Source of the DNA: Daejeonella lutea
Lineage (GTDB): Bacteria > Bacteroidota > Bacteroidia > Sphingobacteriales > Sphingobacteriaceae
Assembly (NCBI RefSeq): GCF_900168015.1
Contig: NZ_FUYR01000005.1
Location: 1-64,000 of the forward strand
DNA length: 64,000 nucleotides
Direction: 5' to 3'
Below are positions 2,022 through 63,513 of this stretch, piece after piece (the first letter of the stretch is position 1; every line of letters begins with the position of its first letter). Below the pieces are notes generated by a model. That model searched no databases. It saw only the letters and a list, made by a program, of their open reading frames with translations, and was not told the origin of the DNA. The position numbers and the translations under genes are program-made.

Positions 2022-2131
2022 CCAAGAACCAAGAGCCAGGAATCAAGATCGGCCATATAAAACGTTTAAAAGTACCTGAATAAGCGCTTGTGTCTTGGTT
2101 CTTGGTTCCTAATTCTTGATACTTGATACTA
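2022..2131. repeat. Heptamer-repeat palindrome between convergent genes
   Basis: Left arm 2022-2049 is four 7-mers (CCAAGAA, CCAAGAG, CCAGGAA, TCAAGAT). Right arm 2093-2127 is five 7-mers of complementary type (TCTTGGT twice, TCCTAAT, TCTTGAT, ACTTGAT). The arms are inverted around a centre of about 43 bases. The right arm runs into the TAG stop codon of the minus-strand receptor gene (2129-2131). It could fold into a two-way terminator-like hairpin. Confidence 0.75.
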
Positions 2132-4786
2132 AAAATTAAATCTCGCCCTCAACATCGCAATCCTTCCTGGAATCCTGTATGATCCGGTAGTAAATGAGTT
2201 AGCGGAAAGGATCAAAGCATCAAAGGTTTTTATATTAGCCAGATTAGTTACCCCAAACTCAAGATCAGTTTTCATTTTGACCAGCTTGTATCTTAAATTT
2301 AAGTCTGCGAAAAGATATTCCAGATCCGGCTGCGTCGATTGGTGCGTATATAGGTGTTCGCCGGAAACATTGACGTATACATTTTTAAGTGTAGTAAACG
2401 ACAAGGTTGATTGCTGCCGTAACTGCTGATAATTGTTCTCCAGGCCATTGCTTACCTTCGCCTTATTATCGGTTACAGAATAATTCAGGTTATAGGATGC
2501 AGTCATGAACCGGGTTAATTTGGATTCTATACCGCCCTTATAGCTTAGGGTCCTTGAGCCGAAAGGCGTTAAAAGGCCGTTTTGAAGTTGGGCAAATGTG
2601 CTATAGTTAAAGCTCACCCCGGCATTGACCGTGCTGCTAAGCCCGAAAAGGTACTTGCTTGAACTTGCACTAAGTCCGTAGTTACGGATGTGATTTGACA
2701 ACGGCAATGCTACGCTCTGCTGTATATTATCAGTGAGCGACATTGAGGAAATGGTGTTTAAAGCTGCATCGCTGTAGTTGCCGGTAATATTGAAGAACAA
2801 CATTTGCATAGCCTTCCTGAAGTTAAAGCTTGCACCAACATTGTGTGTCCGTACTTCAGATAGGGGCGAGTTATTAGCAAAAAAAGAGCGGTAGTTTCTG
2901 AGGATTGTCCCCCGGTAGATATCATTGATCCCGCCAAGCTCGTTGCGGAACGAATAATTCATCGTAAGGTAGGTTTCGATACCGGTCAGGTACTTAACGT
3001 TGAGAGAGGGCGTCAGGAACAGGCGCCGCATAGATTTATCCAGCCTGGTTACGCCGTCCTGATACTTAATTAAATTATAGCCAAGCGGCAGACTCAGCCC
3101 CCCCTGAATTTTATCCTTTTTCAATTCATATGTACCCTCGGCATAAACCCTTGTCCTTGACCAGTTCAGATCATTAACAGCATTTGACGATAGCAATTCT
3201 GTTATCCCCGAGTTTTGGATTCGGTAAAGCTGCGAATTGATCTCCTGTTCCTGCAAACTAAACCCGGCTTTATAGGTCTGCGAAAATTGATTCTTCACGA
3301 AGGCCATCGAGGCGTAATTATTAGTAAAAAATGCTGGTTGCTTCAGCAATTGATCCAGGCCTGCATATGGCATGCCGCTATTGTTGATGTCCGCATTTAA
3401 GCCTGGCGTTATCGATAATATTTCAGGCTGGCTGATCTTATTAAGGAATGAATACAGGTTAAGGATATTCTCCGATTTTAATTTCTTCCGGTAGTTAAAC
3501 TCGTTCGAAATGTCAAAGGTCTTTTGATTAAGAGATTGATTTGCACCTGTTCCGTTAAGGACAATGCGAGATGTGGCCTGAGAAGGCAGATAATCTGCCT
3601 TAAATGTATTGTTAAGATAGTGCAGGTCGGAATTTTCATTGAGGTTAAGCTGAGTTTGCAGTTTCTGCGGCTTAAGCAAATTATCCTGCAGTTCTGTATA
3701 CCTCACCGTTTGTCCGGGAAGATATATTTCGGAAAGCTTGTCGTATTGCTGAACGCGCTCATCATATAAATAAGACACATTTGCCCGCATCTGCAGGTCT
3801 GTATTGAACTTATATAAGTTGTTTAGATTTACTAAGCCGGCAGTGTTTAAAAGTGAGCGGTTCTGAGGGAGACCAGGCACTCCGGCGGCGCCGGTCGAAA
3901 GTAAATTCGCAGGCTTGCTATTTTCCTGGCGGCGCATGAGATCAGCCATATTATGCCCCACCACATCCATACCTGGATCAACACCAATATTATTTCCTTT
4001 TATATTATTCACAAACTTGAGCTCCTTATTGAATAGCATCGCCGAAACATTCCCATCGAACTTATCCGGCGCCCCTGCTCCTGCCAAAGCGTCGCCCATC
4101 ACTTTCATTTTCGCGTCGTCCTTGATAACGAGGTTTAGTGCCACATCTTCACTCATATTGTTCTTCCGCATCATTTTGATCGGCTGATCGTTCTGGATTA
4201 CCTGAACCTTATCAACAGCGCCTTGAGGAATACTTTTTGTCGCAATGTTGTATTTGTCGTCAAGCAAATTATCGCCATCGACGTATAAGTTGGATATGGC
4301 CTTTCCGTTATAACTGATCTTCCCGCTTTCCGCGACTTCAACGCCAGGCATACGCTTAATTACATCTCCGATCGTCCGGTCCTGCTTATCCGCAAAATCG
4401 GAAGTTTTGTAACTCAAGGTATCACCATTGACCGTCAGAGCAGCACGGTTTTTCACCGTGACGGGTGCCAGATCAATAGCGTTATCCTGCAGAATTAGGT
4501 TATAGGGTTTGGTGGGATCGGTGACATTGACGCCAGCCTTTTTATATCCCAGGCTTGATGCCTCCACCCTCAGACCTTTAGCCTGATCTTTAAGACTGAA
4601 CTTGTAGACCCCGGCTGCATTGGTCCTGGTAAAGCTCAGGATGTTACCCTCCGCATCCTTTAGATTAATGCTAACAGCTTCAATAGCTTTGCCCTGGGCG
4701 TCTGTTACTTTACCATTAATAGTTTGCTGCCCAAATGCAAAACATGCGAATAGGGAAAAGCATGTCAAAATAAGGAGCTGTTTCAT
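2129..4786 (-). CDS. Carboxypeptidase-regulatory-like / TonB-dependent outer membrane barrel protein
   Basis: An 885-residue outer-membrane protein. It has a signal peptide (about residues 1-19, ending CFAFGQ), a carboxypeptidase-D-regulatory-like domain (about 20-95: GKVTDAQGKAIEAVSINL), a plug-like domain (about 120-220, with RMPGVEVAESGKISYNG and YVDGD) and a long beta-barrel ending in an aromatic residue (RARFNF). It overlaps the upstream GLPGLI gene by 4 bases, implying translational coupling. Such barrels are regularly paired with GLPGLI proteins in Bacteroidota; the substrate is unknown. With the shared palindrome at 5768, it is probably under BlaI control. Confidence 0.85.
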   Translation of the reverse strand: MKQLLILTCFSLFACFAFGQQTINGKVTDAQGKAIEAVSINLKDAEGNILSFTRTNAAGVYKFSLKDQAKGLRVEASSLGYKKAGVNVTDPTKPYNLILQDNAIDLAPVTVKNRAALTVNGDTLSYKTSDFADKQDRTIGDVIKRMPGVEVAESGKISYNGKAISNLYVDGDNLLDDKYNIATKSIPQGAVDKVQVIQNDQPIKMMRKNNMSEDVALNLVIKDDAKMKVMGDALAGAGAPDKFDGNVSAMLFNKELKFVNNIKGNNIGVDPGMDVVGHNMADLMRRQENSKPANLLSTGAAGVPGLPQNRSLLNTAGLVNLNNLYKFNTDLQMRANVSYLYDERVQQYDKLSEIYLPGQTVRYTELQDNLLKPQKLQTQLNLNENSDLHYLNNTFKADYLPSQATSRIVLNGTGANQSLNQKTFDISNEFNYRKKLKSENILNLYSFLNKISQPEILSITPGLNADINNSGMPYAGLDQLLKQPAFFTNNYASMAFVKNQFSQTYKAGFSLQEQEINSQLYRIQNSGITELLSSNAVNDLNWSRTRVYAEGTYELKKDKIQGGLSLPLGYNLIKYQDGVTRLDKSMRRLFLTPSLNVKYLTGIETYLTMNYSFRNELGGINDIYRGTILRNYRSFFANNSPLSEVRTHNVGASFNFRKAMQMLFFNITGNYSDAALNTISSMSLTDNIQQSVALPLSNHIRNYGLSASSSKYLFGLSSTVNAGVSFNYSTFAQLQNGLLTPFGSRTLSYKGGIESKLTRFMTASYNLNYSVTDNKAKVSNGLENNYQQLRQQSTLSFTTLKNVYVNVSGEHLYTHQSTQPDLEYLFADLNLRYKLVKMKTDLEFGVTNLANIKTFDALILSANSFTTGSYRIPGRIAMLRARFNF

Positions 4787-5736
4787 TTCGCTTCAGGCAG
4801 TTCTATCGGATTGTTGATTACAATGGTCGGACGTGTTACGCCAGCTGCTCCCGTAGGTCCGGAGGGCGAGCCTTGCCGTATAGTTATGTTTGCACCGCTT
4901 ATACCCCTTGCTGCCATTTGCGCCTTCATAAATCCCTGCGGGTCCTTATCGCGGGTTTCTTTTAACTTATCAAAATCCTTTTGTGTGGTTTTTATACCAT
5001 CAGCCGGCAGCTTCACCTCCGCACCGGCGTAAAGATTATTATCCATTCCACCTATCATAACAGTTGCGCCAGAGGGTCCGGTAATATGTCCCCCTGCCGC
5101 GGAAGCTTCTGCACTAACTTGTGGCTTTTCTGTGCCAGCGAACAGAAACTGAACTTCCTTCTTGTCATCATAGGCTTCAATGATCAATCCCGGCAAACCG
5201 TTCAGCTTCCACGGACCGCTTTGAAAAGGCATATCCGGAGCATACCAGGCGATCCAATTTCTGCCTTTAAACCGCGCTGTGGCTTTTTGGGTTTGAATGC
5301 CGGAAATGGTCATGGTATCTTTGGATATCTTCCAGTCAATCACCGGGGCCTTTTCTTCAATCAGGTAATTGTTAAACAAATTCTCAACGGTGATAAATTT
5401 ATTCTCCCTGGCAAAAAAATAATTGTCGGTCCGGGTGATCGGCCGGCTGGATGTCTGCTCGACCCTGATCTGAGTTGGCCCCCCGGCACTATTTTTTATT
5501 TGTTCCTGTATTTGCTTTAAGCGGTTTGCATTTTGGCTTATCTTGTCATTGCTGGTATATACAGAAGCATTTCTACCTGCAATGAGCAACATATTCTCCG
5601 TGCGCGGTTTATCACGATTTAATGTATCATGTATATGGTTAAAAGTGTAGAGCACCCGGATAAGCGCCTTGTCCGGTTCCTGTGAGTAAGCTGTAAAGCT
5701 AAATAAGATCGCACAGCAAAGTAAAAGTCGTTTCAT
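4783..5736 (-). CDS. GLPGLI family protein
   Basis: A 317-residue secreted protein with a signal peptide (about residues 1-18, ending FTAYSQ). It contains the family signature LNGLPGLIIEAYD in the middle, after a typical WYAPDMPFQSGPWK segment. GLPGLI proteins are of unknown function and confined largely to Bacteroidota. The C-terminal third is rich in Gly, Ala and Pro and ends in IELPEAK. The stop overlaps the start of the TonB-type barrel gene by 4 bases (ATGA), so the two are one operon. The operator-like palindrome lies about 32 bases upstream of the start. Confidence 0.88.
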   Translation of the reverse strand: MKRLLLCCAILFSFTAYSQEPDKALIRVLYTFNHIHDTLNRDKPRTENMLLIAGRNASVYTSNDKISQNANRLKQIQEQIKNSAGGPTQIRVEQTSSRPITRTDNYFFARENKFITVENLFNNYLIEEKAPVIDWKISKDTMTISGIQTQKATARFKGRNWIAWYAPDMPFQSGPWKLNGLPGLIIEAYDDKKEVQFLFAGTEKPQVSAEASAAGGHITGPSGATVMIGGMDNNLYAGAEVKLPADGIKTTQKDFDKLKETRDKDPQGFMKAQMAARGISGANITIRQGSPSGPTGAAGVTRPTIVINNPIELPEAK

Positions 5737-5767
5737 ATCAGTTTTTAATTAATTTTCTATTTAACTA

Positions 5768-5781
5768 TCGTAAATCTACGA
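5768..5781. promoter_or_regulatory. Second BlaI-type operator, upstream of the GLPGLI operon
   Basis: TCGTA-AATC-TACGA, an inverted repeat with the same half-site and 4-base spacer as the palindrome at 165-180. Read on the minus strand, the flank is also alike: both sites follow CTACT and an A-rich stretch ending in CTTT. The core contains TAGATTTA on the minus strand, again one base from TAnnTTTG. Placement about 32 bases before the start codon mirrors the blaI site, supporting co-regulation. Confidence 0.6.
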
Positions 5782-5894
5782 AAGTTTAGTAGCTCTGTGA
5801 GGAGTTTAACAAATTTTAACAGTTGGGGACGAAGGAGGAGGCAGGAAGTATGAGGTATGATGGATTTCCGTGAACTGAAGTCGGATGACAAGGC

Positions 5895-6092: not shown

Positions 6093-6125
6093 ATCATATA
6101 TTGACGGCGTTATCTATCAAACAAG

Positions 6126-6155: not shown

Positions 6156-6187
6156 GAATATTGATTGGTTTTAGTCTGCCAAGTCTC

Positions 6188-7021: not shown

Positions 7022-7045
7022 ATTTCTGATTTTAAAACCATCGAA

Positions 7046-14325: not shown

Positions 14326-14382
14326 TTTGGAAGCCTTTTCAAAGAATGATGGCAGACAGATACGGGAAAAAGGGTGAAGTTG

Positions 14383-14536
14383 TTCGACCGCGCTTCGAGT
14401 GTTGTTCGACTGAGCTTCGACAAAACACCCCTCCAGTCGAACAACACTCGAACAACACTCGAAGAAAAGCCGAACACTTCCCGAACGCTTCCCGAACCTG
14501 TCTCGAACCTGTCTCGAAGAACTGTCGAACAAAGCA
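14383..14536. repeat. Inverted array of 11-bp repeats (TTCG / CGAA units)
   Basis: TTCG occurs at 14383, 14394, 14405 and 14416, exactly 11 bases apart. After a short centre, CGAA occurs at 14438, 14449, 14460, 14471, 14482, 14493, 14504, 14515 and 14526, again exactly 11 apart. The seven bases between vary, with neighbouring units often identical (CAACACT twice, CCTGTCT twice). It is an inverted-arm array like the 7-bp elements but with an 11-bp period. It leaves spurious open frames in several directions. Confidence 0.8.
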
Positions 14537-15213: not shown

Positions 15214-15290
15214 GTAGGATTCGTAGGATAATAGGATGGCTGGATTTGGACTAAGATTCATAGGATTATAGGATTCATAAGATCCAGGCG
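15214..15290. repeat. TAGGATT-type short repeat tract
   Basis: About nine copies of (T)AGGAT(T/A/C), spaced 7-9 bases, directly upstream of the hscB start and downstream of the rseP-side heptamer array. The same family is much larger between hisD and hisC (32608-32830). Confidence 0.65.
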
Positions 15291-15356: not shown

Positions 15357-15454
15357 TTTCAACTTTCACCTTTCAACTCTCAACCGTCAACTCTCAACAG
15401 TCAACTGTCAACCGTCAACCGTCAACTGTCAACTGTCAACCGTCAACTGTCCAC
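15357..15454. repeat. Array of 14 heptamers, consensus nnTCAAC
   Basis: Fourteen exact 7-base units run without a gap from 15357 to 15454 (TTTCAAC, TTTCACC, TTTCAAC, TCTCAAC, CGTCAAC, and so on to TGTCCAC). Positions 3-7 are nearly fixed and the first two vary. The last base is also the first base of the rseP stop codon (CTA on the plus strand). Confidence 0.9.
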
Positions 15455-16782
15455 TAATTAATTACGTGCTTAATAATATCATTCCCAAACACAAACACCA
15501 TTAAGGTAATAAGGATCACGAATCCCACCATTTGTGCGCGTTCCATAAACTTGTCACCAAGCGGCTTGCCTTTAACCATTTCGATAAGGAGGAAAATTGC
15601 ATGCCCGCCATCAAGCGCCGGGATAGGTAAAAGATTCATCAGCGCAAGTGCCATAGAAAGTAATCCTACAAGGCTCCAGAACTTAACCCAGTTAACGGTA
15701 GACCCGAACATGGTTGCGATACCTATAGGTCCTGTAAAGGCCTTATTAGCCTTAACCTGACCGGATGCTACTTTACCAAGACCTTTTGCATTATCCATAA
15801 AGGAACCCCATGCGCGAGACGCACCTACAGGCAGGGATTCCAAGAATCCGTATTCTACAGTTTCCAGGGGGATGTCATGATACAGCGGGATATAAACTCC
15901 AACAGTACCTTCAGGGGTAACTTTGGTTGGAATCTGAACAGTTTTATTGTCTCTTGCTACTGTAATGGCGACCTGCTTACCTTTGTTCGCAACAACTATC
16001 TGCTTGAATTCGTCATAAAACGTAACTGGAGTATTATTGATCGCCAGGATACTGTCCCCTAATTTGACCCCTGCTTTCTCTGCATTTCCACCGGGCTCAA
16101 CCATCGAAATTCCGGAAATTTTTACACGCGGTTCTACAAACTGCCCGATGCCCAGATCTGATACTTTCTCAAGAACATCTCCCGGAACGTGAATATTTTT
16201 AGTCTCTTCGCCACGCTTAACAGTAAGTTCAGTATTACCCAGCAATACTTTTGAGCTCGTCAGTTCTTCAAAGCGCTTTACAGGCTTGCCGTTCACCTCG
16301 GTGATACGGTCGCCATTCTGCAAGCCAATTTCACGGCCAATTATCCCTGGTGCTATGCCATAAGGAATTTTATCATTCGGTACGAATGTCTCGCCATTGC
16401 TTAAAGTAAGCATCCAGAATATGAAAATACCAAGGACAATATTCACAGTTACACCGCCAAGCATGACAATTAGTCGCTGCCATGCCGGTTTGGAACGGAA
16501 CTCCCAGGGCTGCGGGGGACCCGATAATTGTTCAGTGTCCATCGATTCGTCGATCATACCGGATATCTTCACGTAGCCTCCAAGAGGAAGCCATCCAATA
16601 CCGTATTCACAACCTTTATAATTGAAGCTGACTAATTTAAATCCCCAGGCATCAAAGAAGAGATAGAATTTCTCTACCCGAATGCCAAAAGCACGGGCGG
16701 CTAAAAAGTGCCCTGCTTCGTGTAATATGATTAAAATTGATAACCCAAGTAACAGCTGACCTGTCATTACTAATCCATCCAT
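15454..16782 (-). CDS. rseP: RseP-type site-2 zinc protease (M50)
   Basis: A 442-residue intramembrane protease. HEAGH near residue 21 lies in the first membrane segment; two PDZ domains follow in the middle (about residues 140-215 and 220-290); the C-terminal membrane segments carry NLLPIPALDGGH, the third zinc ligand region. In other bacteria it cuts anti-sigma factors or signal peptides within the membrane. The gene is 29 bases from dxr and probably co-transcribed. The TAG stop abuts a 14-unit heptamer array. Confidence 0.92.
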   Translation of the reverse strand: MDGLVMTGQLLLGLSILIILHEAGHFLAARAFGIRVEKFYLFFDAWGFKLVSFNYKGCEYGIGWLPLGGYVKISGMIDESMDTEQLSGPPQPWEFRSKPAWQRLIVMLGGVTVNIVLGIFIFWMLTLSNGETFVPNDKIPYGIAPGIIGREIGLQNGDRITEVNGKPVKRFEELTSSKVLLGNTELTVKRGEETKNIHVPGDVLEKVSDLGIGQFVEPRVKISGISMVEPGGNAEKAGVKLGDSILAINNTPVTFYDEFKQIVVANKGKQVAITVARDNKTVQIPTKVTPEGTVGVYIPLYHDIPLETVEYGFLESLPVGASRAWGSFMDNAKGLGKVASGQVKANKAFTGPIGIATMFGSTVNWVKFWSLVGLLSMALALMNLLPIPALDGGHAIFLLIEMVKGKPLGDKFMERAQMVGFVILITLMVFVFGNDIIKHVIN

Positions 16783-21198: not shown

Positions 21199-21233
21199 GT
21201 GACAGTGGACAGTTGACGGTTGACAGTTGACTA
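21199..21233. repeat. Five heptamers (TTGACAG family) between two glycosyltransferase genes
   Basis: Units GTGACAG, TGGACAG, TTGACGG, TTGACAG and TTGACTA fill the complete gap. The last unit contains the stop codon (CTA, read TAG on the minus strand) of the upstream gene, and the first begins 2 bases from the start codon of the next. Confidence 0.85.
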
Positions 21234-22181
21234 AACAGTTTTCTCAATGTGGTACGAGTTCCGTTCCGGGGAATTTCTTGAAACCAGTTCAGCTACAAAT
21301 CCGGTAAGGAAAAGCTGGAAGCCAACAATTATTGCGACCAGGGCAATATAGAATAAAGGTTGATCGGTAGCATTTCGGTATTTTAGGTTATGAGAAATGT
21401 CGATAAGCTTTTCAGCGATTAACCAAACTGCTATAAAAAGTCCGGCAAGGAAGCTCAATGCTCCCATTGTGCCAAAAAAGTGCATAGGACGCTTTGCAAA
21501 TTTACCCACAAAAAATATCGAAAGCAGATCCAGGAAACCATTCACAAAGCGGCTTAACCCAAATTTTGTAGTTCCATATTTCCTTGCACGATGTTCTACG
21601 ACCTGCTCACCTATTTTAGTAAATCCTGCCCATTTTGCAATCACAGGGATATATCTGTGCATTTCGCCATACACCTCGATATTTTTCACAACGTCCTTCC
21701 GATAGGCTTTCAGTCCGCAATTGAAATCGTGCAGGTTATGTATTCCCGACATCTTGCGGGTGAAAAAATTGAAAACTTTGGTTGGAATAGTTTTGCTCAG
21801 GGGATCATGCCTCTTCTGCTTCCAGCCCGACACAAGGTCAAACTTATCTTCCGTGATTTTTCTGTATAGCTCTGGTATTTCATCCGGACTATCCTGTAGG
21901 TCGGCGTCCATCGTTATCACTACGGTACCCTTACTTGCTTCAAAGCCAACATTTAACGCAGCCGACTTGCCATAATTTCTACGGAATTTAATGCCTACGA
22001 TATTCGGCAGGTTTTGCTTCAGGGACTCAATTACTTCCCACGAACCGTCGTTACTTCCATCATCAACCAGGATAATTTCATAAGTAAAACCATTAGCATC
22101 CATAACGCGGCTGATCCAGCTCGTCAATTCAGGCAATGATTCAGCCTCGTTTAATAAAGGGACGACTACAGAAATGTTCAT
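21231..22181 (-). CDS. DPM1/GtrB-like family 2 glycosyltransferase
   Basis: A 316-residue polyprenyl-phosphate glycosyltransferase type. The catalytic part has SVVVPLLNEAESLPELTSW, ILVDDGSNDGSW, KFRRNYGKSAALN and the DxD motif in ITMDADLQDSPDE near residues 92-96. HRARKYGTTKFGLSR precedes two C-terminal membrane segments (LSFLAGLFIAVWLIA and PLFYIALVAIIVGFQLF). These enzymes load a sugar onto undecaprenyl or dolichyl phosphate at the cytoplasmic face. The exact sugar is unknown. Confidence 0.9.
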   Translation of the reverse strand: MNISVVVPLLNEAESLPELTSWISRVMDANGFTYEIILVDDGSNDGSWEVIESLKQNLPNIVGIKFRRNYGKSAALNVGFEASKGTVVITMDADLQDSPDEIPELYRKITEDKFDLVSGWKQKRHDPLSKTIPTKVFNFFTRKMSGIHNLHDFNCGLKAYRKDVVKNIEVYGEMHRYIPVIAKWAGFTKIGEQVVEHRARKYGTTKFGLSRFVNGFLDLLSIFFVGKFAKRPMHFFGTMGALSFLAGLFIAVWLIAEKLIDISHNLKYRNATDQPLFYIALVAIIVGFQLFLTGFVAELVSRNSPERNSYHIEKTV

Positions 22182-22187: not shown

Positions 22188-22222
22188 GTTGACGGTTGAC
22201 GGTTGACGGTTGACAGGGGACG
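22188..22222. repeat. Heptamer tract GTTGACG/GTTGACA
   Basis: Units GTTGACG three times, GTTGACA and GGGGACG, followed by a decayed continuation (TTGACAG, GTTAACAG) to about 22243. It starts 7 bases upstream of the glycosyltransferase start codon, inside its presumed 5' region. No matching inverted arm is visible downstream. Confidence 0.8.
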
Positions 22223-22621
22223 TTGACAGTAGAAAGTTAACAGCGACATATTGTATAAACAGGATTTCTAAGGAGCAAATTTCATCAAAAAAGGTCGGAA
22301 TATATAGTTTTCTTTCGGAATGCTTAAAATTACAAGTTATCGGGTGCCGTCTAACTGGATGGATGGTCGACTCACCCCTGGCGCAAGTTCGCCTGCTTAA
22401 AGCGCCGATTGTTGCCCAATTGTAAAATTGCTCTTAAATATTATGCTCTCAGAACAGACTGAACACTCAGAACCGTTATTCTAATTACGTATCACGGACC
22501 CAGAAATGACTCTTAAATCCAAACACTAACAACATCCGTATATGGATGAGAATTGGAACTTCATTTTATCTTCATAATCCACTTTTATTTTAGTATCAGA
22601 ACATTAGCAATACCATTATAC
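22223..22621. other. Gene-free region before the S41 protease
   Basis: After the decayed heptamers I find no convincing gene, repeat or promoter box. A short open frame at 22210-22425 has no protein-like character. The S41 protease promoter is presumably in the A/T-rich stretch 22520-22620. Confidence 0.45.
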
Positions 22622-29663: not shown

Positions 29664-29822
29664 TAAGAATCAAAAATACAAATTAAGTTGAACTATCAAC
29701 TTTTATACTGTCAGATATTTGAAACGGTTTGTTAGTTGACAGGTGACTGTTGACGGTTGACAGCGGTGAGGCCGTTAAATAAATACTTGTTGACTTAATA
29801 ATTAAGACCGCGTGGCCCAACT

Positions 29823-29852: not shown

Positions 29853-30203
29853 ATGGGTGTAGTAGCTACAAAATCATATTCATTTGCCCTCGAGGTAATT
29901 GAAATTCACAGGCATTTGTTAGAAACGAAGAAAGAATATGTCTTATCTAAACAATTACTTAGAAGTGGAACTGCTATTGGAGCTTTAATAAAGGAGGCGG
30001 AGCACGCGCAGTCGAGGGCTGATTTCCTTCACAAAATGAATATAGCCTTAAAAGAGGCGAATGAGACGGAGTATTGGCTTATGTTACTCAAAGACAGCAA
30101 CAACATCGACAAGGAAAGATATAACAAAATAATTGCACCTTGTAAATCAATCCTACGCCTGCTTATATCTATTGTAAAGAGCACAAAATCCAATCTTAAA
30201 TAA
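29853..30203 (+). CDS. Four-helix-bundle protein (S23 / 23S rRNA intervening-sequence family)
   Basis: A 116-residue, all-helical, basic protein. The segments FALEVIEIHRHL, YVLSKQLLRSGTAIGALIKEAEHAQSRADFLHKM and ALKEANETEYWLMLL are the hallmark of the S23 four-helix-bundle family, first seen as ORFs inside 23S rRNA intervening sequences and related in fold to the Avd protein of diversity-generating retroelements. Its role is unknown; nucleic-acid binding is suspected from the basic surface of homologues. Here it stands alone between two 28-base inverted heptamer arms, next to no rRNA or reverse transcriptase. Confidence 0.88.
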   Translation: MGVVATKSYSFALEVIEIHRHLLETKKEYVLSKQLLRSGTAIGALIKEAEHAQSRADFLHKMNIALKEANETEYWLMLLKDSNNIDKERYNKIIAPCKSILRLLISIVKSTKSNLK

Positions 30204-30286
30204 TTATTAATCGATAATAATTGTCAACTGTCAACAGTCAACTGTCAACTTATTAAAATTCATTTTCAATTTTAACACGGTATCCG

Positions 30287-31320: not shown

Positions 31321-32610
31321 ATGCTGAACGTTTTTAAACTAAGTGATCTGGACCAAAAGAAGATCTCTGAGCTGTGCCTTCGAAATGTTGACGGGAACAA
31401 TGATATAAAAAATACTGTTGCCGATATTATTGAAGAAGTTAAGCTCAACGGTGATCGTGCACTGCGGGGATTTGCTGAGAAGTTTGATGGGATACAACTG
31501 CAGCAGCTGTACATTGGCAAAGAAGAAATCGACAGACTCGCTTTACATGTCGGAAATGCCGAAAAACAAGCGCTACAATTGGCCTATTCCAATATCCGGA
31601 AGTTTCATGAGCCACAATTAATTAGCGAAAGCAAAATTGAAACAAGCAATGGTGTAGTTTGCTGGAGAGAAACCCGGGCTATTGAGAAAGTAGGGTTATA
31701 TATTCCTGGCGGAACTGCGGTTCTTCCTAGTACCTTTCTAATGCTCGGCATACCGGCAAGAATTGCAGGATGCGCCGAAATAGTTGTTTGTTCTCCTCCC
31801 CAAAAGGATGGAAAAGTAAATCCTTACCTGGCGTATTGTGCCCAGCTTTTGAACATCGGGAAAATCTATCTGGTTGGCGGCGCTCAGGCCGTGGCTGCTA
31901 TGGCTTACGGCACAGAAAGCATTCCGAAAGTTAACAAAATATTCGGCCCGGGAAACCAGTACGTCACTAAGGCTAAGACTATTATACAGTCTGAAAGCCA
32001 GACGGCCATTGACATGCCTGCTGGACCATCAGAAGTGCTGATCATTGCTGATCAAACAGCTAATGCCGCATTTGTCGCCGCTGATATGCTGGCTCAGGCG
32101 GAACATGGGGTCGATAGCCAGGCTGTGCTGGTTTCAGACTCAATGGATTTGATAGACCAGACCCAGAAAGAGATCCTCAAACAAATAAAGGACCTTCCGA
32201 GACAGGAAATTGCGGCAAAAGCGATCGAAAATTCTTTCGCAATTTTAGCTGAGGATTTGAATCTGGCTATGGGGTTTAGCAATGAGTATGCACCAGAGCA
32301 TCTCATTCTTGCTACAGACACCTGGGAATCACTCACCAGCAAAATTATTAATGCGGGATCAGTCTTCCTTGGTCATCTAACACCTGAAAGTGCTGGTGAT
32401 TATGCGTCAGGAACCAACCATACCTTGCCAACCAGTTCATTTGCTAAAGCTCATTCGGGCGTCTCGGTAGATTCGTTCGTAAAAAAGATCACCTTTCAGC
32501 ATATAACCAGGATTGGGATTGAGAACCTGGGCCCAACAGTGGAGGTTTTAGCAGAGTTGGAAGGGCTGGATGCTCACAAAAATGCGATAACGGTTAGATT
32601 AAAAGACTAG
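31321..32610 (+). CDS. hisD: Histidinol dehydrogenase
   Basis: An enzyme of about 430 residues that oxidises histidinol to histidine in two steps. Motifs include [65 protein letters not shown] and the C-terminal [10 protein letters not shown] with zinc-site residues. I take ATG 31321 as start; a GTG at 31312 would add three residues. It follows hisG by 17 bases. The TAG stop is part of the first TAGGATT unit of a 300-base repeat region that separates it from hisC. Confidence 0.95.
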
Positions 32611-32915
32611 GATTGTCAGGACTAGGATTAGTAGGATGATGGGATTATAGGATTATAAAGCGGAATCGGAATAGGATGCATAGGATTATAGGATTCATAG
32701 GATGGCAAAGCGGAATAGGAATAGGATTAGTAGGATTATAGGATTCATAGGATGGCAAAGCGGAATAGGAATAGGATGCGTAGGATATCGGACAGGATTT
32801 ATCGGATTATAGGATTTGTGTGGTTAAGAATCTAAAGAGTAATTCGAATGTTAGCACCCTCAGATCTTGATACTTGATACCTGATACCTGATACTTGATA
32901 CCTGATACTTGATAC
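32608..32915. repeat. Repeat-filled gap between hisD and hisC: 50-bp tandem plus heptamers
   Basis: From the hisD stop onward, TAGGAT-type units continue to about 32815. Within this a 50-base unit starting CGGAAT(A/C)GGAATAGGAT is repeated at 32661 and 32711 and partly at 32761. A second array of seven exact 7-mers (TTGATAC or CTGATAC) covers 32867-32915, ending 10 bases before the hisC start. No gene is present. The operon otherwise has tight spacing, so this is an insertion-like interruption. Confidence 0.85.
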
Positions 32916-37231: not shown

Positions 37232-37237
37232 AAATTG

Positions 37238-37314
37238 TTGCCGGTTGTCTGTTAGCAGTTACCAGGCAAATCGAATAGCCTTCCAGACTGACAACTGGCA
37301 ACTCACAACTGATT
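37238..37314. repeat. Heptamer palindrome between hisF and hisIE
   Basis: Left arm 37238-37265: TTGCCGG, TTGTCTG, TTAGCAG, TTACCAG. Right arm 37287-37314: ACTGACA, ACTGGCA, ACTCACA, ACTGATT. The arms are roughly complementary around a 21-base centre and fill the gap from hisF to hisIE. Confidence 0.75.
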
Positions 37315-37319: not shown

Positions 37320-37922
37320 ATGAAGATTGATTTTGATAAAAGCAACGGACTCGTTCCGGTGATCATCCAGGACGAAAAAACCCTTGAGGTGTTGATGCTT
37401 GGCTATATGAATGAAGCTGCATATCAAAAAACTTCGTCGGAGAACAAAGTCACTTTCTTTTCGAGAACAAAAAACCGCCTATGGACCAAGGGTGAAGAGA
37501 GCGGCAATTTTTTGCACGTAATTTCAATCAAAGAAGATTGTGATAATGACACGCTTCTCATCAAAGTAAAACCGGAAGGGCCAACTTGCCATACCGGTTC
37601 CAGAAGCTGCTTTAATACGGAATACAATCAAAACTTCATTTTTGAACTTGAGAATATCATCCATGACCGATACACTAATCCAGTCGAAGGCTCCTATATA
37701 AACAAGCTTCGTGGAAAAGGTATCAACAAGATCGCTCAAAAGGTTGGGGAAGAAGGTGTAGAAACCGTTATAGCTGCCCTCAACGAAACAGAGCATGACT
37801 TCGTCAACGAGGTTTCCGATTTGGTTTTCCACCTGTTCGTACTTATGAAAGAAAAAAATGTTAACCTGGACACAATCGCAAAAAATCTTGCTGCGAGACA
37901 CTCCGCAAAAGTTGACAGTTGA
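37320..37922 (+). CDS. hisIE: Bifunctional phosphoribosyl-AMP cyclohydrolase / phosphoribosyl-ATP pyrophosphatase
   Basis: A 200-residue fusion. The HisI part (about 1-105) has MLGYMNEAAY, RTKNRLWTKGEESGN and the zinc Cys motif GPTCHTGSRSCF. The HisE part (about 110-200) has YINKLRGKGINKIAQKVGEEGVETVIAA, the MazG-like metal site. It is the last his gene. Its final codons and TGA stop (37911-37922) are formed by the first heptamers of a GTTGACA array, so the last residues KVDS derive from repeat. Confidence 0.95.
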   Translation: MKIDFDKSNGLVPVIIQDEKTLEVLMLGYMNEAAYQKTSSENKVTFFSRTKNRLWTKGEESGNFLHVISIKEDCDNDTLLIKVKPEGPTCHTGSRSCFNTEYNQNFIFELENIIHDRYTNPVEGSYINKLRGKGINKIAQKVGEEGVETVIAALNETEHDFVNEVSDLVFHLFVLMKEKNVNLDTIAKNLAARHSAKVDS

Positions 37923-37952
37923 GAGTTGACAGTTGACAATTGAGAGTTGAGA
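37911..37952. repeat. Six heptamers at the hisIE stop codon
   Basis: GTTGACA, GTTGAGA, GTTGACA, GTTGACA, ATTGAGA and GTTGAGA, exactly in phase. The hisIE stop TGA is inside units 2-3 of the array. No inverted arm is evident before the WD40 gene at 38032. Confidence 0.9.
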
Positions 37953-38031
37953 ATGGCGAGTGGCCTGCCTGCCTCCAGGGGTACAGCTTGTTCAGCTATT
38001 AAGATCGTGAACGTAATATCTAATTCATCCG

Positions 38032-38943
38032 ATGATTGAAGTAAAGCTTTTAGCGACCTTTTCGGGCCATCAGAATCCAATATTCACCGCTGAAAATTCA
38101 CAAAAACCCGAAATTTTATTTACGGCCGGAAATGATAAAGGTGTGGTGGAATGGAGTCTGAAAACCATGAGCTTTATAAAAGTCATGTTCCCTGTCAGTT
38201 CATCCGTGTACACCCTGCATTGCCCCTCTGGCCAGCCCTATTTGATAGCAGGCGAAAGAAACGGCCAGGTTAGTGTATTTGATTTTACAGAACAACGGGT
38301 AACGCAGGTCCTGCGTCATCACAAGCTTCCTGTATTTGACATTAAAACAGTGAGCGGTAAGGATGAGATGCTGGTAGCGTCCGAAGACGGGACCGTGTCC
38401 GTCTGGGATGTGCAAAGCTTGAAAATGCTTTACAACTTTAAAGTTTCATCAGATACAGTGCGTGTTATCAGTATAAGTCCCGACCAAAAGTCAGTCGCAT
38501 TTGGGTGTAAAGACAACAAAGTCAGGATATATAAGCTTGAAGACTATAGCCTGGTAGCTGAGCTCAGTGAACATACACTTCCAGTTACATCCCTCCAATT
38601 CTCCCCTGATGGCAGGTTCCTGTTGTCGGGAAGCAGGGATGCTCAGCTCAAGATATGGGATACCACAGACTACAGGCTCACTCAAAATGTCGCCGCACAT
38701 TTGTTTTCCATATATAGCATAGCATTTCATCCGGAGTTGCCCTTCGTTGCCACCGCAAGCAGAGACAAAAGCATAAAGATTTGGGATGCTGACAATTTTA
38801 ACCTTAAAAAAACTATCAGTTTTGAGAAGGGCTACGAGATGCATCGACTTTCTGTCAATAAGATTATTTGGGATATGGAGAACAGGCTGATATCTGTCGG
38901 AGACGATAAATTAGTAAAGGTTTGGGACGTTTTGTGTGAGTGA
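38032..38943 (+). CDS. WD40-repeat protein
   Basis: A 303-residue cytoplasmic beta-propeller of about seven blades. Several blades end in the typical WD pair (VSVWDVQSL, LKIWDTTDY, IKIWDADNF, VKVWDVLCE) and carry LLSGSRD or TASRDK strands. There is no signal peptide or extra domain. It is a likely protein-interaction scaffold; partners are unknown. The TGA stop is followed directly by a heptamer palindrome. Confidence 0.88.
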   Translation: MIEVKLLATFSGHQNPIFTAENSQKPEILFTAGNDKGVVEWSLKTMSFIKVMFPVSSSVYTLHCPSGQPYLIAGERNGQVSVFDFTEQRVTQVLRHHKLPVFDIKTVSGKDEMLVASEDGTVSVWDVQSLKMLYNFKVSSDTVRVISISPDQKSVAFGCKDNKVRIYKLEDYSLVAELSEHTLPVTSLQFSPDGRFLLSGSRDAQLKIWDTTDYRLTQNVAAHLFSIYSIAFHPELPFVATASRDKSIKIWDADNFNLKKTISFEKGYEMHRLSVNKIIWDMENRLISVGDDKLVKVWDVLCE

Positions 38944-39047
38944 TACGTTATACGTATTACGTTATACGTTATACGTTATGGCTTCCGACTAATCACTATT
39001 TACCTATCCGATATGCAACGTAATACGTACAACGTAATACGTACAAC
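38944..39047. repeat. TTATACG heptamer palindrome exactly filling a stop-to-stop gap
   Basis: Left arm (about 38947-38975): TTATACG, TATTACG, TTATACG, TTATACG. Right arm (about 39016-39047) reads on the other strand as TTGTACG, TATTACG, TTGTACG, TATTACG. It begins at the base after the WD40 stop codon and ends at the base before the stop codon of the convergent NlpC/P60 gene. Confidence 0.85.
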
Positions 39048-40461: not shown

Positions 40462-40568
40462 CAAGTATCAGGTATCAAGAATCGAGATTCGAGGAAGATT
40501 AACTTACACATGAAATTTAGCTATGCAAGATACACCAGCCTTGATACTTGATTCTTGATACTTGATAC
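40462..40568. repeat. CAAGTAT/TTGATAC heptamer palindrome
   Basis: Left arm 40462-40489 (CAAGTAT, CAGGTAT, CAAGAAT, CGAGATT) begins at the base after the uspA stop. Right arm 40541-40568 (TTGATAC, TTGATTC, TTGATAC, TTGATAC) is its inverse. The TTGATTC unit pairs with GAATC of the left arm, so the variant is kept in both arms. Confidence 0.85.
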
Positions 40569-40570
40569 AT

Positions 40571-42102: not shown

Positions 42103-42212
42103 CAGATATAAGGTATCAAGATTCGGAGCCGGTAAGCTTTTAATTTCATTGTGACCTTTTTATTCCTTTGATACACCTGTCTTGATACATAATACCTGAT
42201 ACTTGCTACTAA
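42103..42212. repeat. GTATCAAG-type heptamer palindrome
   Basis: The left arm (42103-42123: CAGATAT, AAGGTAT, CAAGATT) begins at the base after the stop codon of the LuxC-like gene. The right arm (42181-42208: CTTGATA, CATAATA, CCTGATA, CTTGCTA) is roughly its inverse. The arms are more decayed than at other sites. Confidence 0.65.
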
Positions 42213-42230
42213 TTCGTAACTTTGAACCTC

Positions 42231-43122: not shown

Positions 43123-43274
43123 GTATCAGGTATCAGGTATCAGGTATCAAGTATCAGGTATCAAGTATCAGGTATCAAGTATCAGGTATCAGGTATCAAG
43201 ACTAACGTACCCAGCGGTAAATCGTTTTTATTTACAAACTCCAAATCTTGCTACTTGATACTTGCTACGTGATA
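43123..43274. repeat. Eleven GTATCAG/GTATCAA heptamers with inverted right arm
   Basis: Units run exactly from 43123 to 43199 (77 bases). Position 7 alternates between G and A in an irregular pattern (G G G A G A G A G G A). The right arm (43247-43274: CTTGCTA, CTTGATA, CTTGCTA, CGTGATA) is inverted and shorter, so the arms are unequal in unit number. The element begins 5 bases after the ftsE stop. Confidence 0.9.
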
Positions 43275-43332
43275 CTCTATCTGACACTCTGACGCATTTC
43301 AGCTTTTGGCAAAAAAATTGTCATAGGCAGGT

Positions 43333-44012: not shown

Positions 44013-45179
44013 ATGGGGAAAAGAGATTACTACGATGTACTTGGCGTCACCCGCTCTTCTACGGCGGATGAGATTAAGAAGGCATATCGCAAAATGGCAA
44101 TCAAATATCATCCGGATAAGAATCCTGGTGATAAGAAATCTGAAGATAACTTCAAGGAAGCCGCCGAAGCATACGAAGTTTTGAGCAACGCCGATAAAAA
44201 GAAGCGTTACGATCAGTTTGGTCATGCGGGAGGTGCTGCAAGTGCTAATGGCGGAGGCTATGGTGGCGGAAACATGAACATGGATGATATCTTCAGCCAG
44301 TTTGGAGATATCTTCGGTGGTGGCGGTGGAAGTCCTTTTGACAGTTTTTTTGGAGGGCAACAACAATCTCGGGGAGGCCGTCGTGTATCAAGAGGAAGTA
44401 ATCTGAGGATCAAAGTCAAATTAACTCTGGAAGAGATCGCGAAAGGGGTTGAGAAGAAGGTTAAAGTTAATAAACAGATCATCTGTGAAACATGTGACGG
44501 TAGCGGCGCAAAAGACAAATCTTCATTCCATACCTGTCATACTTGTAACGGAAGCGGATCGGTACGCCGGGTTACCAACACCATTCTTGGCCAGATGCAG
44601 ACTACCAGCACCTGCCCTACCTGTAATGGCGAAGGAAGTGAAATAACTGCAAAATGTACTGTTTGTCATGGCGACGGCCTGACAAGAGGAGAAGAAACGA
44701 TTAATATTAATATTCCTGCTGGTGTGAGCGAGGGAATGCAGTTATCGATGAGCGGTAAAGGTAATTCAGCTCCACGGGGTGGTATTGCCGGAGACCTGAT
44801 TATCCTGATCGAAGAATTGCCTCATGAATTGCTGAAACGAGAAGGTAATAATATTATCTATGATCTTCATGTCAGCTTTATTGACGCTGCCGTGGGATCA
44901 AGTGTTGAGGTTCCTACCATCGACGGTAAAGCAAAAATTAAGATAGAGCCTGGAACGCAAGGTGGAAAAATCCTTCGCTTGAAATCTAAGGGAGTACCGG
45001 AAGTTAATTCCTACCACCGCGGCGACCAGCTTATTTATGTTAATATCTGGACGCCAAAAGCATTGTCCAAAGACGAACGTGAAATGCTCGATAAACTAAA
45101 AGATTCTCCCAATTTCAAACCACAACCGGGTAAAAATGAAAAGAGCTTCTTTGATAAGATGAAGGAGTACTTTGAGTAA
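44013..45179 (+). CDS. dnaJ: DnaJ chaperone
   Basis: A 388-residue type I J-protein. The J domain has HPD at 33-35, followed by a Gly/Phe region (about 75-125), four CxxCxGxG zinc motifs ([32 protein letters not shown]; about residues 155-220) and the C-terminal client-binding domains. It stimulates DnaK. It follows grpE and is terminated by a hairpin at 45229-45265. The TAA stop is followed directly by four CGAGAAG-type heptamers. Confidence 0.96.
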
Positions 45180-45207
45180 CGAGAAGCGAGAGACGAGAAA
45201 CGAGATG
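45180..45207. repeat. Four CGAGAAG heptamers at the dnaJ stop
   Basis: CGAGAAG, CGAGAGA, CGAGAAA and CGAGATG run from the base after the stop codon. No inverted arm is visible before the terminator at 45229. Confidence 0.8.
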
Positions 45208-45228: not shown

Positions 45229-45265
45229 AAAAGCCTGTCCTTAAAAAGGATGGGCTTTTTTTATT
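45229..45265 (+). terminator. Terminator after dnaJ
   Basis: The stem AAAGCCTGTCCTT pairs with AAGGATGGGCTTT (two G-U pairs), followed by a seven-T run and ATT. It overlaps the end of the convergent MG2/TonB-plug gene (stop at 45261), so it may serve both directions. Confidence 0.85.
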
Positions 45266-57009: not shown

Positions 57010-57037
57010 TGACAGTTGACAGTTGACAGTTGACAGC
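57010..57037. repeat. Four TGACAGT heptamers upstream of the KdsC-like gene
   Basis: TGACAGT three times and TGACAGC, exactly in phase, starting 9 bases upstream of the start codon. It lies in the gap between iscX and the phosphatase gene. No inverted partner is evident in this gap. Confidence 0.85.
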
Positions 57038-57688: not shown

Positions 57689-57712
57689 TAGGGCAAAAAT
57701 AACAAATTAAAT

Positions 57713-60951: not shown

Positions 60952-60957
60952 TAAGAT

Positions 60958-61368
60958 TTAGATTTTTGCGGTAGTAGCAGATACTTCAGTAACTTCTACC
61001 TCGTCTTTGGTGTATTTAGATGGGCATTTCATCAAGATTTTCGAAGCGTGAAATTCATTACCGATCATCTTTCCTGTCAGAACGATTTGCTCGGAACGCT
61101 CAAAATCTTGTGGTTTGGAACCGCTGAATACTACCTTGCACTCCTTACCGTCGTTATCTTTGAGGTAAAAGGAAAAATAGTTGGCATCTTGAACAGGATT
61201 GTAAAAAAGTTCTTTTTCTTTGTTTAATTGGCCTACAACATGCAATTCCGATTCAGTTTGACGAGCGTCAGTGAATGAACCGTATGTACTCGAATCTGCG
61301 TAGGTGCTGATGATGACACAGATAGCAATAGCTATAATGATCATACCTGCGATAGAACTTTTCTTCAT
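60958..61368 (-). CDS. ccmE: CcmE haem chaperone, CxxxY variant
   Basis: A 136-residue haem chaperone: one N-terminal membrane anchor (GMIIIAIAICVIISTYA), an OB-like beta-barrel (VVGQLNK..., FSFYLKDNDGKECKVVF) and a C-terminal tail. The haem-binding position is C115-x3-Y119 (KCPSKY), whereas most proteobacterial CcmE has HxxxY. A Cys version is known from archaea and Desulfovibrio. It precedes ccmF by 6 bases and follows the promoter at 61407-61438. Confidence 0.92.
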   Translation of the reverse strand: MKKSSIAGMIIIAIAICVIISTYADSSTYGSFTDARQTESELHVVGQLNKEKELFYNPVQDANYFSFYLKDNDGKECKVVFSGSKPQDFERSEQIVLTGKMIGNEFHASKILMKCPSKYTKDEVEVTEVSATTAKI

Positions 61369-61406
61369 TGTTGTGAATATTAGAACCTAAACGGCGATTG
61401 CCACCA

Positions 61407-61438
61407 CAAAAGTACTAAATGCTAAACTTTTGAAGCAA
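61407..61438 (-). promoter_or_regulatory. Promoter of the ccmE-ccmF operon
   Basis: On the minus strand TTG (61438-61436) and TACTTTTG (61414-61407) match the Bacteroidota -33 and -7 boxes with a 21-base spacer. The start codon is 38 bases downstream. Confidence 0.6.
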
Positions 61439-61478
61439 TTCTAACAACAATGTTTCTATATTAGAATCATTCTAAATA

Positions 61479-61616
61479 AGTTATACGTTTTACGTTGTAC
61501 GTTCTAAGTGTCTAAACGCTGCACCAGCCGTCAAGGTCTAAAACGTGGTTGTTATACGATTTATAACGCTGCGCTGACCGCCCAGGCGTAAAACGTACAA
61601 CGTAAAACGTATAACT
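61479..61616. repeat. Palindromic element with perfect 25-base inverted arms (TTATACG/TTTTACG)
   Basis: The left arm 61479-61503 is exactly complementary to the right arm 61592-61616. Within the arms the 7-base units TTATACG, TTTTACG and TTGTACG are visible. The centre, about 88 bases, holds further related short segments (TTATACGATTTATAACG). It ends 4 bases before the gdhA stop codon. Confidence 0.9.
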
Positions 61617-61619
61617 CAA

Positions 61620-63056
61620 TTATGGCCAGATTCCCATATTCATGTATGACACGGCAACTTTGTTAATTGAACTAACAAAAGCGGCAGTACGAAGGCTATC
61701 AATTCTGGAATTTTCCATTTTGATCTCACGAATCTCATGATATGAGCGAATCATTGTATCCTCCAAGCCTGAATTAACGAGCTCAAGTTCTGATGCACCT
61801 TTAATGATCATACTTCTTTGAGTTGCATCGAGGGTTACGCCTGTAGATTTTTCAATTGTGTTGACAAGATTGAGATTTGCATTCTCTTCATAACGCTTGT
61901 CCATACGGCCAAACGCAACATGCGAAAGGTTTTTCAACCACTCGAAATAGGATACGGTAACACCTCCGGCATTGCAGTACATATCAGGAATCAGAATACA
62001 ACCTCTCTCAATCAAAGCAGACGCCGCATCAGGAGTAGTAGGTCCGTTTGCAGCTTCAGCTATAATTTTTGCCTTAATATTTGCAACGTTATGTTCTGTA
62101 AGTTGATTTTCAAGAGCTGCAGGAACTAAGATATCGCATTCCTGTTCAAGACCCTCAGAAGAATTCTTAAATTCTTTGTGAGCCTTTGAAAATCCAAGGA
62201 TTGAACCTGTTGTTTTTCGATGATTAAAAACTTCATCAAGATCGAACCCTTCGGAACTGTAAATTGCACCCTCAAATTCGCAAATACCCACGATCGTGGC
62301 GCCAAATTCTGTAAGGTATTTGATGGTGTAATATCCTACGTTACCCATACCTTGAACAATTACCCGCTTGCCGGATAAACCTGCTTCAAGACCAAGTTTC
62401 TGCATATCTTCAGCAACGCTTACGCATTCGCGGATGGAAATGGCAACACCACGACCAGTAGCTTCTTTTCGTCCAGCAATACCATGAAGCGCCAGCGGCT
62501 TTCCCGTCACGCAACCCAGGGCATCCAGCTGGCCCGGATTCATTGTCTGATAGGTATCGGCTATCCAGCTCATTTCTCTCTCACCGGAACCATAATCAGG
62601 AGCAGGTACATCTATTCCGGGTCCAATAAAATTCTTTTTTATCAGCTCAACGGTGTACCGGCGTGTAATATTCTCCAACTCCGCAACCGTGTATTCTTTA
62701 GGATTAATTTTAATACCCCCTTTGGCTCCACCAAAAGGCACGTTGACAATCGCACACTTATACGTCATCAATGCTGCAAGAGCCATCACCTCATCCTCAT
62801 TCACCATTTCACTATAACGAATCCCACCTTTCGTTGGTGACTTGTGATGAGAATGCTCAACACGCCATGCATCAATCACCTCAAATCCATTCCCTCTTCG
62901 AATCGGAAAACGGAAGCGGTATACACTGTTACATGATCTGATCTGATCAAGCAATCCTTCAGGATGTGATGTAAATTGCGCTGCATGATCAAAAAACTGG
63001 CAGACGTCTCCAAAAAAAGATGTTTCGGAATGCGCTGCGTCTATAGACTTAGCCAT
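61620..63056 (-). CDS. gdhA: Glu/Leu/Phe/Val dehydrogenase (glutamate dehydrogenase type)
   Basis: A 478-residue oxidative deaminase. The substrate Lys motif is PFGGAKGGIKINP near residue 105, the catalytic region DVPAPDYGSGEREMSWI follows, and the NAD(P) loop is VIVQGMGNVGYYTIKYL near residue 235. EAANGPTTPDA and NAGGVTVSYFEW complete the family signature. It interconverts glutamate and 2-oxoglutarate plus ammonia. It stands among cytochrome c maturation genes, and its stop is next to a heptamer element. Confidence 0.92.
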   Translation of the reverse strand: MAKSIDAAHSETSFFGDVCQFFDHAAQFTSHPEGLLDQIRSCNSVYRFRFPIRRGNGFEVIDAWRVEHSHHKSPTKGGIRYSEMVNEDEVMALAALMTYKCAIVNVPFGGAKGGIKINPKEYTVAELENITRRYTVELIKKNFIGPGIDVPAPDYGSGEREMSWIADTYQTMNPGQLDALGCVTGKPLALHGIAGRKEATGRGVAISIRECVSVAEDMQKLGLEAGLSGKRVIVQGMGNVGYYTIKYLTEFGATIVGICEFEGAIYSSEGFDLDEVFNHRKTTGSILGFSKAHKEFKNSSEGLEQECDILVPAALENQLTEHNVANIKAKIIAEAANGPTTPDAASALIERGCILIPDMYCNAGGVTVSYFEWLKNLSHVAFGRMDKRYEENANLNLVNTIEKSTGVTLDATQRSMIIKGASELELVNSGLEDTMIRSYHEIREIKMENSRIDSLRTAAFVSSINKVAVSYMNMGIWP

Positions 63057-63201
63057 ACTGTAAATAAATTTATTTAATAATTGGTTTATGCAAAGTTGAA
63101 AGAAATTAATTGATACTAAAAATGAAAATCACTTAGTGTACCAAGTACATTTTCCAAACCAATTCAAAAAACTTAACAGACAGATTTTAAAGGCAGATTT
63201 T

Positions 63202-63417
63202 TTACTTCTGTTGCTTCTCGATTTTTTTTAGCCTGTTGTCTATTGAGAACAAATAGAATGCCAGTCCAATGAAAATTGCGGCCAACACCGCCACCACAAC
63301 ATATATTTTGCCGGAGCTCCGTAGCTCTGTCGCCATTTCAACTTCAGAGCTTCCCTGTGCGAAAATTGAGGCCGCCGTCAAGCATAAAAAACAGATTACA
63401 AAAAGGAATTTTTTCAT
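63202..63417 (-). CDS. CcmD-like small membrane protein
   Basis: A 71-residue protein with a signal-like N-terminus (ending SIFAQ), one membrane segment (YVVVAVLAAIFIGLAFYLF) and a basic tail (DNRLKKIEKQQK). The C-terminal half, a membrane segment followed by basic residues, is typical of CcmD, which supports haem export to CcmE. Its position after ccmC supports this. The N-terminal extension is longer than in proteobacterial CcmD. Confidence 0.78.
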   Translation of the reverse strand: MKKFLFVICFLCLTAASIFAQGSSEVEMATELRSSGKIYVVVAVLAAIFIGLAFYLFSIDNRLKKIEKQQK

Positions 63418-63440
63418 TGTTATAGTTTTGGGTATTATGT

Positions 63441-63513
63441 ATCAAGTATCGAATATCGAGGCTGGCGTTTAACCTGAAGATCCGCCGCTCTCAACTGTCA
63501 ACTTTCGAAATCA
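63441..63513. repeat. Two short heptamer tracts near the ccmC stop
   Basis: ATCAAGT, ATCGAAT and ATCGAGG (63441-63461), and TCTCAAC, TGTCAAC and TTTCGAAATCAAC (63489-63513). The latter contains the TCA (TGA on the minus strand) stop of ccmC. Confidence 0.65.

Follow-up and report, generated by a model that had tools for sequence, protein, structure and literature searches.

What are the rows of tandem 7-bp units that lie between many genes of Daejeonella lutea, and how did they come to be there? The question is raised by a window of 64,000 nucleotides (assembly GCF_900168015.1, contig NZ_FUYR01000005.1, positions 1 to 64,000), in which an earlier note, made from the sequence alone, had described about 15 intergenic sites of strict 7-base tandem units. 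Herein, these sites are analyzed in the window genome (G000; Sphingobacteriales, 4.03 Mb in 10 contigs, 1.78 of the 4.03 Mb analyzed), in its sister genome G003 (median protein identity 87%) and in 20 members of the genus, with small parts of the relatives' genomes covered. We put slightly better than even confidence in one explanation: the arrays would be dispersed DNA elements, named convergent heptad arrays, that are spread and rewritten at the DNA level by copying between arrays and are tolerated at the 3' ends of genes. The observations behind it are the period, the polarity, the anchoring at stop codons, the insertion and replacement in orthologous gaps, and a pattern of fixed and free bases within the unit that is alike in the two arms, across all loci and between two species.

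The arrays of the window were located with Tandem Repeats Finder. The arrays named in the earlier note were recovered, with 13.9 units at 15359-15455, 10.9 at 43123-43198 and 7.1 at 32866-32915, and about 16 further period-7 arrays were found in about 15 gaps. Periods were then counted by a phase scan of intergenic DNA with shuffled controls. The first 800 kb of contig C10 held 50 intergenic arrays of period 7, none of periods 5, 6 or 8 and one of period 9, and shuffled DNA held none; periods 3-6, 8-10, 12 and 13 gave 0 to 2 each in the same 800 kb. In 1.6 Mb of G000 there were 134 arrays of period 7 against one each of periods 5, 6 and 9, two of period 8 and 21 of period 11. Among the 20 genus species, 106 arrays had period 7, five had period 8 and one had period 6; four species, scanned over 40 kb each, gave no period-7 array at the threshold used, and some of these carry degenerate heptads. 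Among the genus members, G016, G005 and G014 were classed as array-free. The same period was dominant in 117 unrelated loci of other phyla, retrieved by the pattern TTGAYAN. With the matched pattern masked, these loci held 131 arrays of period 7, none of period 5, 6 of period 6 and 13 of period 8, and cyanobacterial loci among them carry period-7 arrays, which may or may not be the tandem STRR heptamers of cyanobacterial gaps. A reversed pattern also hits the arrays and is unsuitable as a control for such searches. The proposed excess of period 7 over periods 6 and 8 is thus clear, and the idea of a class set by its 7-bp period and not by its sequence is supported.

Each element is made of one or two arms, with 3 to about 25 units of 7 bp in a row per arm. 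In two-arm elements, the arms face each other, and the centre between them measures from 3 bp to about 160 bp. The two inverted arms described earlier therefore hold as an architecture, but many sites are single-armed. Read 5' to 3', the G-rich strand points to the gap centre in 68 of 75 arrays in convergent gaps, 115 of 137 in codirectional gaps and 25 of 30 in divergent gaps. At the other-phylum loci, counted with the pattern unmasked, it points inward in 110 of 157 cases (p=5e-7). This polarity, alike in convergent, codirectional and divergent gaps, indicates a property of the element and not of transcription. Arms start at an R-G anchor and tend to stop just past it, in which they differ from simulated arrays of random phase. 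When read toward the centre, left and right arms have the same unit profiles, which indicates a constraint on DNA and not on mRNA. The arms within one element are barely more similar than arms across elements (0.760 vs 0.738), and the lengths of the two arms are independent (r=0.05).

An 11-base motif, CTGGGCGGATA, occupies the inner tip of an arm in 15 of 54 intergenic matches, where 0.5 were expected. It always points inward and is found in arms of several unit families. In some MGTTDTA elements, the motif is lengthened to a 24-base core, seen in G000, in G003 and once in G007; a common core for all elements was rejected on account of this confinement. Copying of one arm as the mirror of the other was also rejected, as the inner end gave no excess (z=0.4) and the outer end a weak one (z=2.8). 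The latter is perhaps due to the outermost MGTTDTA unit tending to have A as its first base and the inner ones C. Such an end-specific grammar is visible in the MGTTDTA elements of both G000 and G003, where AGTT is the usual beginning of the outermost unit in either arm and CGTT that of the inner units.

The units fall into a few families, which in anchor register read RGTKGAN, RGWAKCA, RGTRATC, MGTTDTA, AGGNDTT and AGARYMA. The most fixed positions are more than 90-95% one base and the free positions are mixed, with heterogeneity p values of 3e-6 to 8e-44 in G000. The profiles were derived from the data they describe, and G003 served as a second sample; there the base frequencies of GTTDTAM are nearly equal to those in G000. 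At most of the positions examined, agreement between adjacent units does not exceed that after shuffling, and two of the five families tested (MGTTDTA and RGTRATC) have their free positions in linkage equilibrium.

The arrays are often found at stop codons. Elements were placed at random inside their own gaps in 1000 permutations, with gene calls from a home-made hexamer open reading frame (ORF) caller; these calls, used for all of the statistics, are approximate. Within 6 bp of a stop codon lay 25 of 69 elements on C10 (10.6+/-2.5 expected), 12 on C4 (5.8 expected) and 23 in G003 (12.9 expected), and in each data set 0 of 1000 permutations reached the observed number. The suggested anchoring at stops is confirmed by this roughly twofold excess over random intergenic positions. 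At start codons, no excess over random placement in gaps was found in the same three data sets; individual arrays, such as those at 57010 and 21200, face start codons as well. TAG is the stop in 39 of 101 genes that end in a left-type array, compared with 23% genome-wide (p=4e-4), and for 16 of these 39 the AG of the TAG codon keeps register with the purine-G anchor of the array (p=4e-5). Thirty-five genes have their stop codon within an array, and units that contain a stop triplet may account for part of the excess. The earlier list of genes with an array at the stop needs a correction at hisD: the repeat beside its stop at 32610 is an array of 9-bp units, ATAGGATTC, and the 7-bp array sits 255 bp beyond it. 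The argument that period 7 brings a stop triplet of the unit into all frames is valid for TTGAC, TAATC and TTAGG units but fails for GTATCAA, AAGAACC and GTGGAAA read in sense, and is not general.

The comparison of orthologous gaps had been proposed in the earlier note as a check, and both insertions and replacements were found. Among 112 gaps conserved between G000 and G003, an array is present only in G000 in 10, only in G003 in 10 and in both in 7. The hisF-hisIE gap is 6-18 bp long and free of elements in 14 relatives; it is 88 bp long with a GTTGNCN element in G000 and 104 bp long with an unrelated GAATTAA/ATCTAAT element in G013. In the gap after 42102, the heptamer spelling differs among six species (G000, G010, G019, G007, G004 and G018). 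At the site of the 14-unit arm of the window, G003 has a shorter array with related but different units. In G009 and G002, with 94% identity in the aligned non-coding flanks, a single site carries AGTAGTT units in one genome and TCTGTTG units in the other, and between G010 and G019 (flanks 90%) a new array stands next to an old arm. These empty, filled and respelled gaps indicate that arrays are inserted and replaced quickly. Within G002, one 42-base array is matched at eight loci, with 0-3 differences that fall almost exclusively at free positions. In G019, the orthologue of the gap at window 42103-42230 (L218-L219) seems to hold a nested element, with an AGTAGTT array inserted beside an older degenerate arm.

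In the explanation that we prefer, units or short blocks would be copied between arrays with a common 7-bp register and anchor, by template switching or by recombination at the gap. The elements would survive mainly just past stop codons, because this is probably the first place where added DNA is harmless. The fixed bases suggest that each unit is read, either by the copying machinery or by a protein that binds the array. Several results weigh against this explanation. Free positions are linked in three of the five families tested, position 6 of GTTGACA shows some similarity between neighbours (186 vs 165), and two families have Fst-like values of 0.31-0.36, which leave room for some local duplication. 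Exact blocks of at least 35 bp common to arrays number 8 against 4.2 expected after unit shuffling, with an overall p of 0.07, which weakly supports block copying; the longest exact match to a distant array is 41 bp, both for the arm at 32866 and for that at 43123. The centres of the elements are mostly non-homologous, unlike those of a classical mobile element, and the conserved core is limited to G000, G003 and one G007 match. No enzyme or binding protein was identified in the searches made. The Y1 transposase (PF01797) has 0 matches in G000 and is present in 13 of the 20 genus members without tracking the arrays. Omega_Repress gave no match in 20 genomes, and none in control genomes either.

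The earlier note had left a choice between a self-spreading and a slippage-built element. Insertions and replacements in orthologous gaps support the former. That the arrays are heptanucleotide simple sequence repeats, grown by replication slippage with 7 nt as the polymerase footprint and neutrally tolerated in gaps, is unlikely in our judgment. The excess of period 7 described for many bacteria (PMC4692102, and PMC4679880 as it cites Mrazek et al.), the different array lengths in close species and some higher-order repeats of 14, 21 and 46 bp are all consistent with slippage. Plain slippage is argued against by a pattern of fixed and free positions that is alike across loci and species, together with neighbours that are mostly no more alike than random units, and it does not predict so few unit families, inverted partner arms, inward polarity or phase-locked ends. 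It is quite unlikely that the arrays are rows of binding sites, selected for nucleoid organisation or segregation, for a protein that would read 7-bp units cooperatively, by analogy with the ribbon-helix-helix protein Omega on WATCACW. Such a protein would account for the fixed bases in each unit, the direct and inverted orientations, the presence of at least 3-4 contiguous units and the symmetry at the DNA level. One dimer is known to read each WATCACW heptad whichever way it is oriented (PMC9499535), and GATYACY units resemble that site. However, several families in one genome and their full replacement between species fit one conserved protein poorly, as do the four species without period-7 arrays at the scan threshold.

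Long hairpins at 3' ends had also been suggested in the earlier note; as mRNA terminators or stabilisers selected at the RNA level, they are very unlikely to be the selected feature. Six of the seven window elements tested do fold better than all of their shuffles, and the anchoring at stops would suit such a role, but the polarity is kept between divergent genes, the 5' and 3' arm profiles are equal without a sense-strand bias, and sense-strand G.U and A.C mismatches number 33:24 (p=0.29), which is no significant bias. Elements also lie inside operons. The arms do not as a rule show the G+C-rich stem with U-run of intrinsic terminators: terminator-like matches between 29000 and 46000 number 14, equal to shuffles, and only one (30223-30242) overlaps an arm; an ordinary terminator-like hairpin at 45229-45259 is separate from the arm at the dnaJ stop. 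Least probable of all is telomerase-like synthesis, in which a polymerase or reverse transcriptase would add units one by one to broken ends on a degenerate or imprecise template, and the ends would be joined head to head. It would explain why the units of species-specific arrays differ mainly at free positions (G002 vs G009, and the eight G002 loci), why the G-rich strand points to the junction and why arm lengths are independent, and addition of tandem repeats by bacterial reverse transcriptases is known (DRT10, PMC12632851). However, RVT_1 was found in only 3 of 20 genus members and is absent from the array-rich G010, G004, G019 and G018, although divergent reverse transcriptase families could be missed by this search. 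A reverse transcriptase was rejected as the builder on this basis. The centres of 3-155 bp, some with sequence common to more than one species, also speak against this reading.

The arrays and elements of the window are listed in Table 1.

Table 1. Heptad arms and elements of the window, with their surroundings.
Feature	Position	Strand	Remarks
Left arm, AGARYMA-type (CCAAGAA)	2019..2048	+	12 bp past stop of gene ending at 2006
Right arm, TCTTGGT then CTTGATA units	2093..2131	+	terminates in stop of minus-strand gene 2129-4786; folds z=-3.9
14-unit arm (TCAACTG / CAGTTGA)	15359..15455	-	overlaps stop of M50 protease gene (15454-16782)
Single AGTTGAC arm	21200..21231	+	fills 33-bp operon gap; G003 gap 15 bp, no array
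AGTTGAC arm	22188..22229	+	beside start of gene 21231-22181
Left-type AGTTGAC arm	29734..29763	+	Tandem Repeats Finder
Right-type TGTCAAC arm	30222..30250	+	past small gene 29853-30203
Right arm, CTTGATA x7	32866..32915	+	upstream of hisC
Complete element, degenerate GTTGNCN arms	37237..37312	+	between hisF and hisIE; folds z=-3.2
Left arm, AGTTGAC/AGTTGAG	37910..37961	+	contains hisIE stop (37922)
Element, MGTTDTA arms 38943-38979 and 39016-39047	38943..39047	+	between convergent WD40 gene and gene 39048
Element, GTATCAA arms	40462..40569	+	after universal-stress-protein gene; 22-bp outer stem; folds z=-9.3
Degenerate GTATCAA element	42109..42214	+	sole one of seven tested not folding better than shuffles
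Element: left GTATCAG x11 (43123-43198), centre, right CTTGATA (43247-43276)	43123..43276	+	G003 gap 42 bp, no element
AGAAACG-type arm	45174..45205	+	at dnaJ stop (45179)
AGTTGAC arm	57010..57036	+	gap has GAGGTAG units in G010, mixed units in G003
Element, MGTTDTA arms	61476..61615	+	25-bp outer stem; variant of core CTGGGCGGATAACACAGCGTTTAG (reverse strand) near 61560-61588

Some further observations were made on arrays of the window and elsewhere. The left-type arm at 29734 and the right-type arm at 30222 face each other across the small gene between them. The 21 intergenic arrays of period 11 are a second, sibling class with a different step. In the window, 14379-14518 holds arrays of 11-bp units in two inverted arms, TTCGANNNNNN on the left and TCGAACAACAC / CCGAACACTTC on the right. 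Runs of the same 9-bp unit as that beside hisD lie at 15214-15287 and 32614-32816; variants of 8 and 17 bp occur as well, as does a higher-order repeat of 50 bp. The G003 counterpart of the 15214-15287 gap has a shorter AGGATT run, and some 9-bp-unit runs elsewhere terminate in a motif like the tip motif. Larger blocks are also repeated. At G000:C10:617611-617998 (L150), a 46-bp block of RGTKGAN heptamers and AGTTACTAAACGCTTAA stands in eight or nine tandem copies, and at G003:C9:484882-485090 (L276, L278) a 62-bp element, with the core CTGGGCGGATAACAGAGCGTTTAG and arms, occurs four times in tandem, a whole-element duplication. In Pseudoflavonifractor, Oscillospiraceae and Dysosmobacter (L008, L042, L059, L065, L077, L099, L111), AATTGAC-type convergent heptad arrays were found; these Clostridia arrays have free positions (AATKNAY) and the same architecture as those of G000.

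The arrays were compared with known systems. REP/BIME elements are palindromic and dispersed, and they lie after stop codons and inside operons, as the G000 arrays do. They differ in having no tandem 7-bp units, and an origin of this kind through RAYT was rejected on the Y1 transposase results given above. The closest description to the G000 arrays is that of the heptamer repeats of Xanthomonas (GGGAATC) and Nostoc (GGGGAYT), for which the authors favoured quadruplexes and found no function (PMC4692102). The Xanthomonas (GGGANTN)n and Nostoc repeats share with the arrays the free positions, convergent pairs, nearness to the ORF that precedes them, the polarity of the strands and variation from one sister species to the next. 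Those repeats are explained as G-quadruplex repeats of one sequence, whereas many families share one genome in G000. Moreover, G000 units such as AGTTGAC, GTATCAA and GTTDTAM have no G-tracts, and no GGG occurs in the families AGTTGAC, GTATCAA, GTAATCA, GTTDTAM and AGARYMA.

In marine Beggiatoaceae, direct repeats of TAACTGA lie in short sets ahead of start codons, together with a single indirect repeat, and were proposed as sites of translational regulators (PMC4679880). They resemble the arrays as intergenic heptamers at ORF ends, and TAACTGA is the reverse complement of TCAGTTA, a main unit of G002; the short sets before starts and the single indirect repeat are differences. For long simple sequence repeats with an excess of heptanucleotides (Mrazek et al. 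2007, via PMC4679880), slippage was the explanation. Period 7 is over-represented there too, and arms, polarity and fixed positions are not part of the account as cited. The parS sites of pSM19035 hold 7-10 contiguous degenerate 7-bp units, direct and inverted, bound by Omega/ParB (PMC9499535). They are like the arrays in their units and orientations and unlike them in number and place, with six promoter sites on one plasmid vs hundreds at gene ends. Omega is the best analogy for something that might read 7-bp units.

The known heptamer cases may share one so far unexplained architecture. A bacteria-wide convergent heptad class, in which Xanthomonas GGGANTN, Beggiatoa TAACTGA and Clostridia/Bacteroidales AATTGAC would be local spellings, is a tentative and rather doubtful extension; there, an enzyme writing unit by unit or a guarding protein would keep constant the step of 7 bp, the RG anchor and the inward direction of the G-rich strand, and not the letters. 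The heptanucleotide excess has been noted since 2007 without explanation, and single spellings have been explained singly, by quadruplexes, translational signals or slippage. The polarity, the phase-locked ends, the fixed and free positions and the swap of spellings at orthologous gaps are testable features that none of those explanations covers, and with them what was an old curiosity becomes a defined class.

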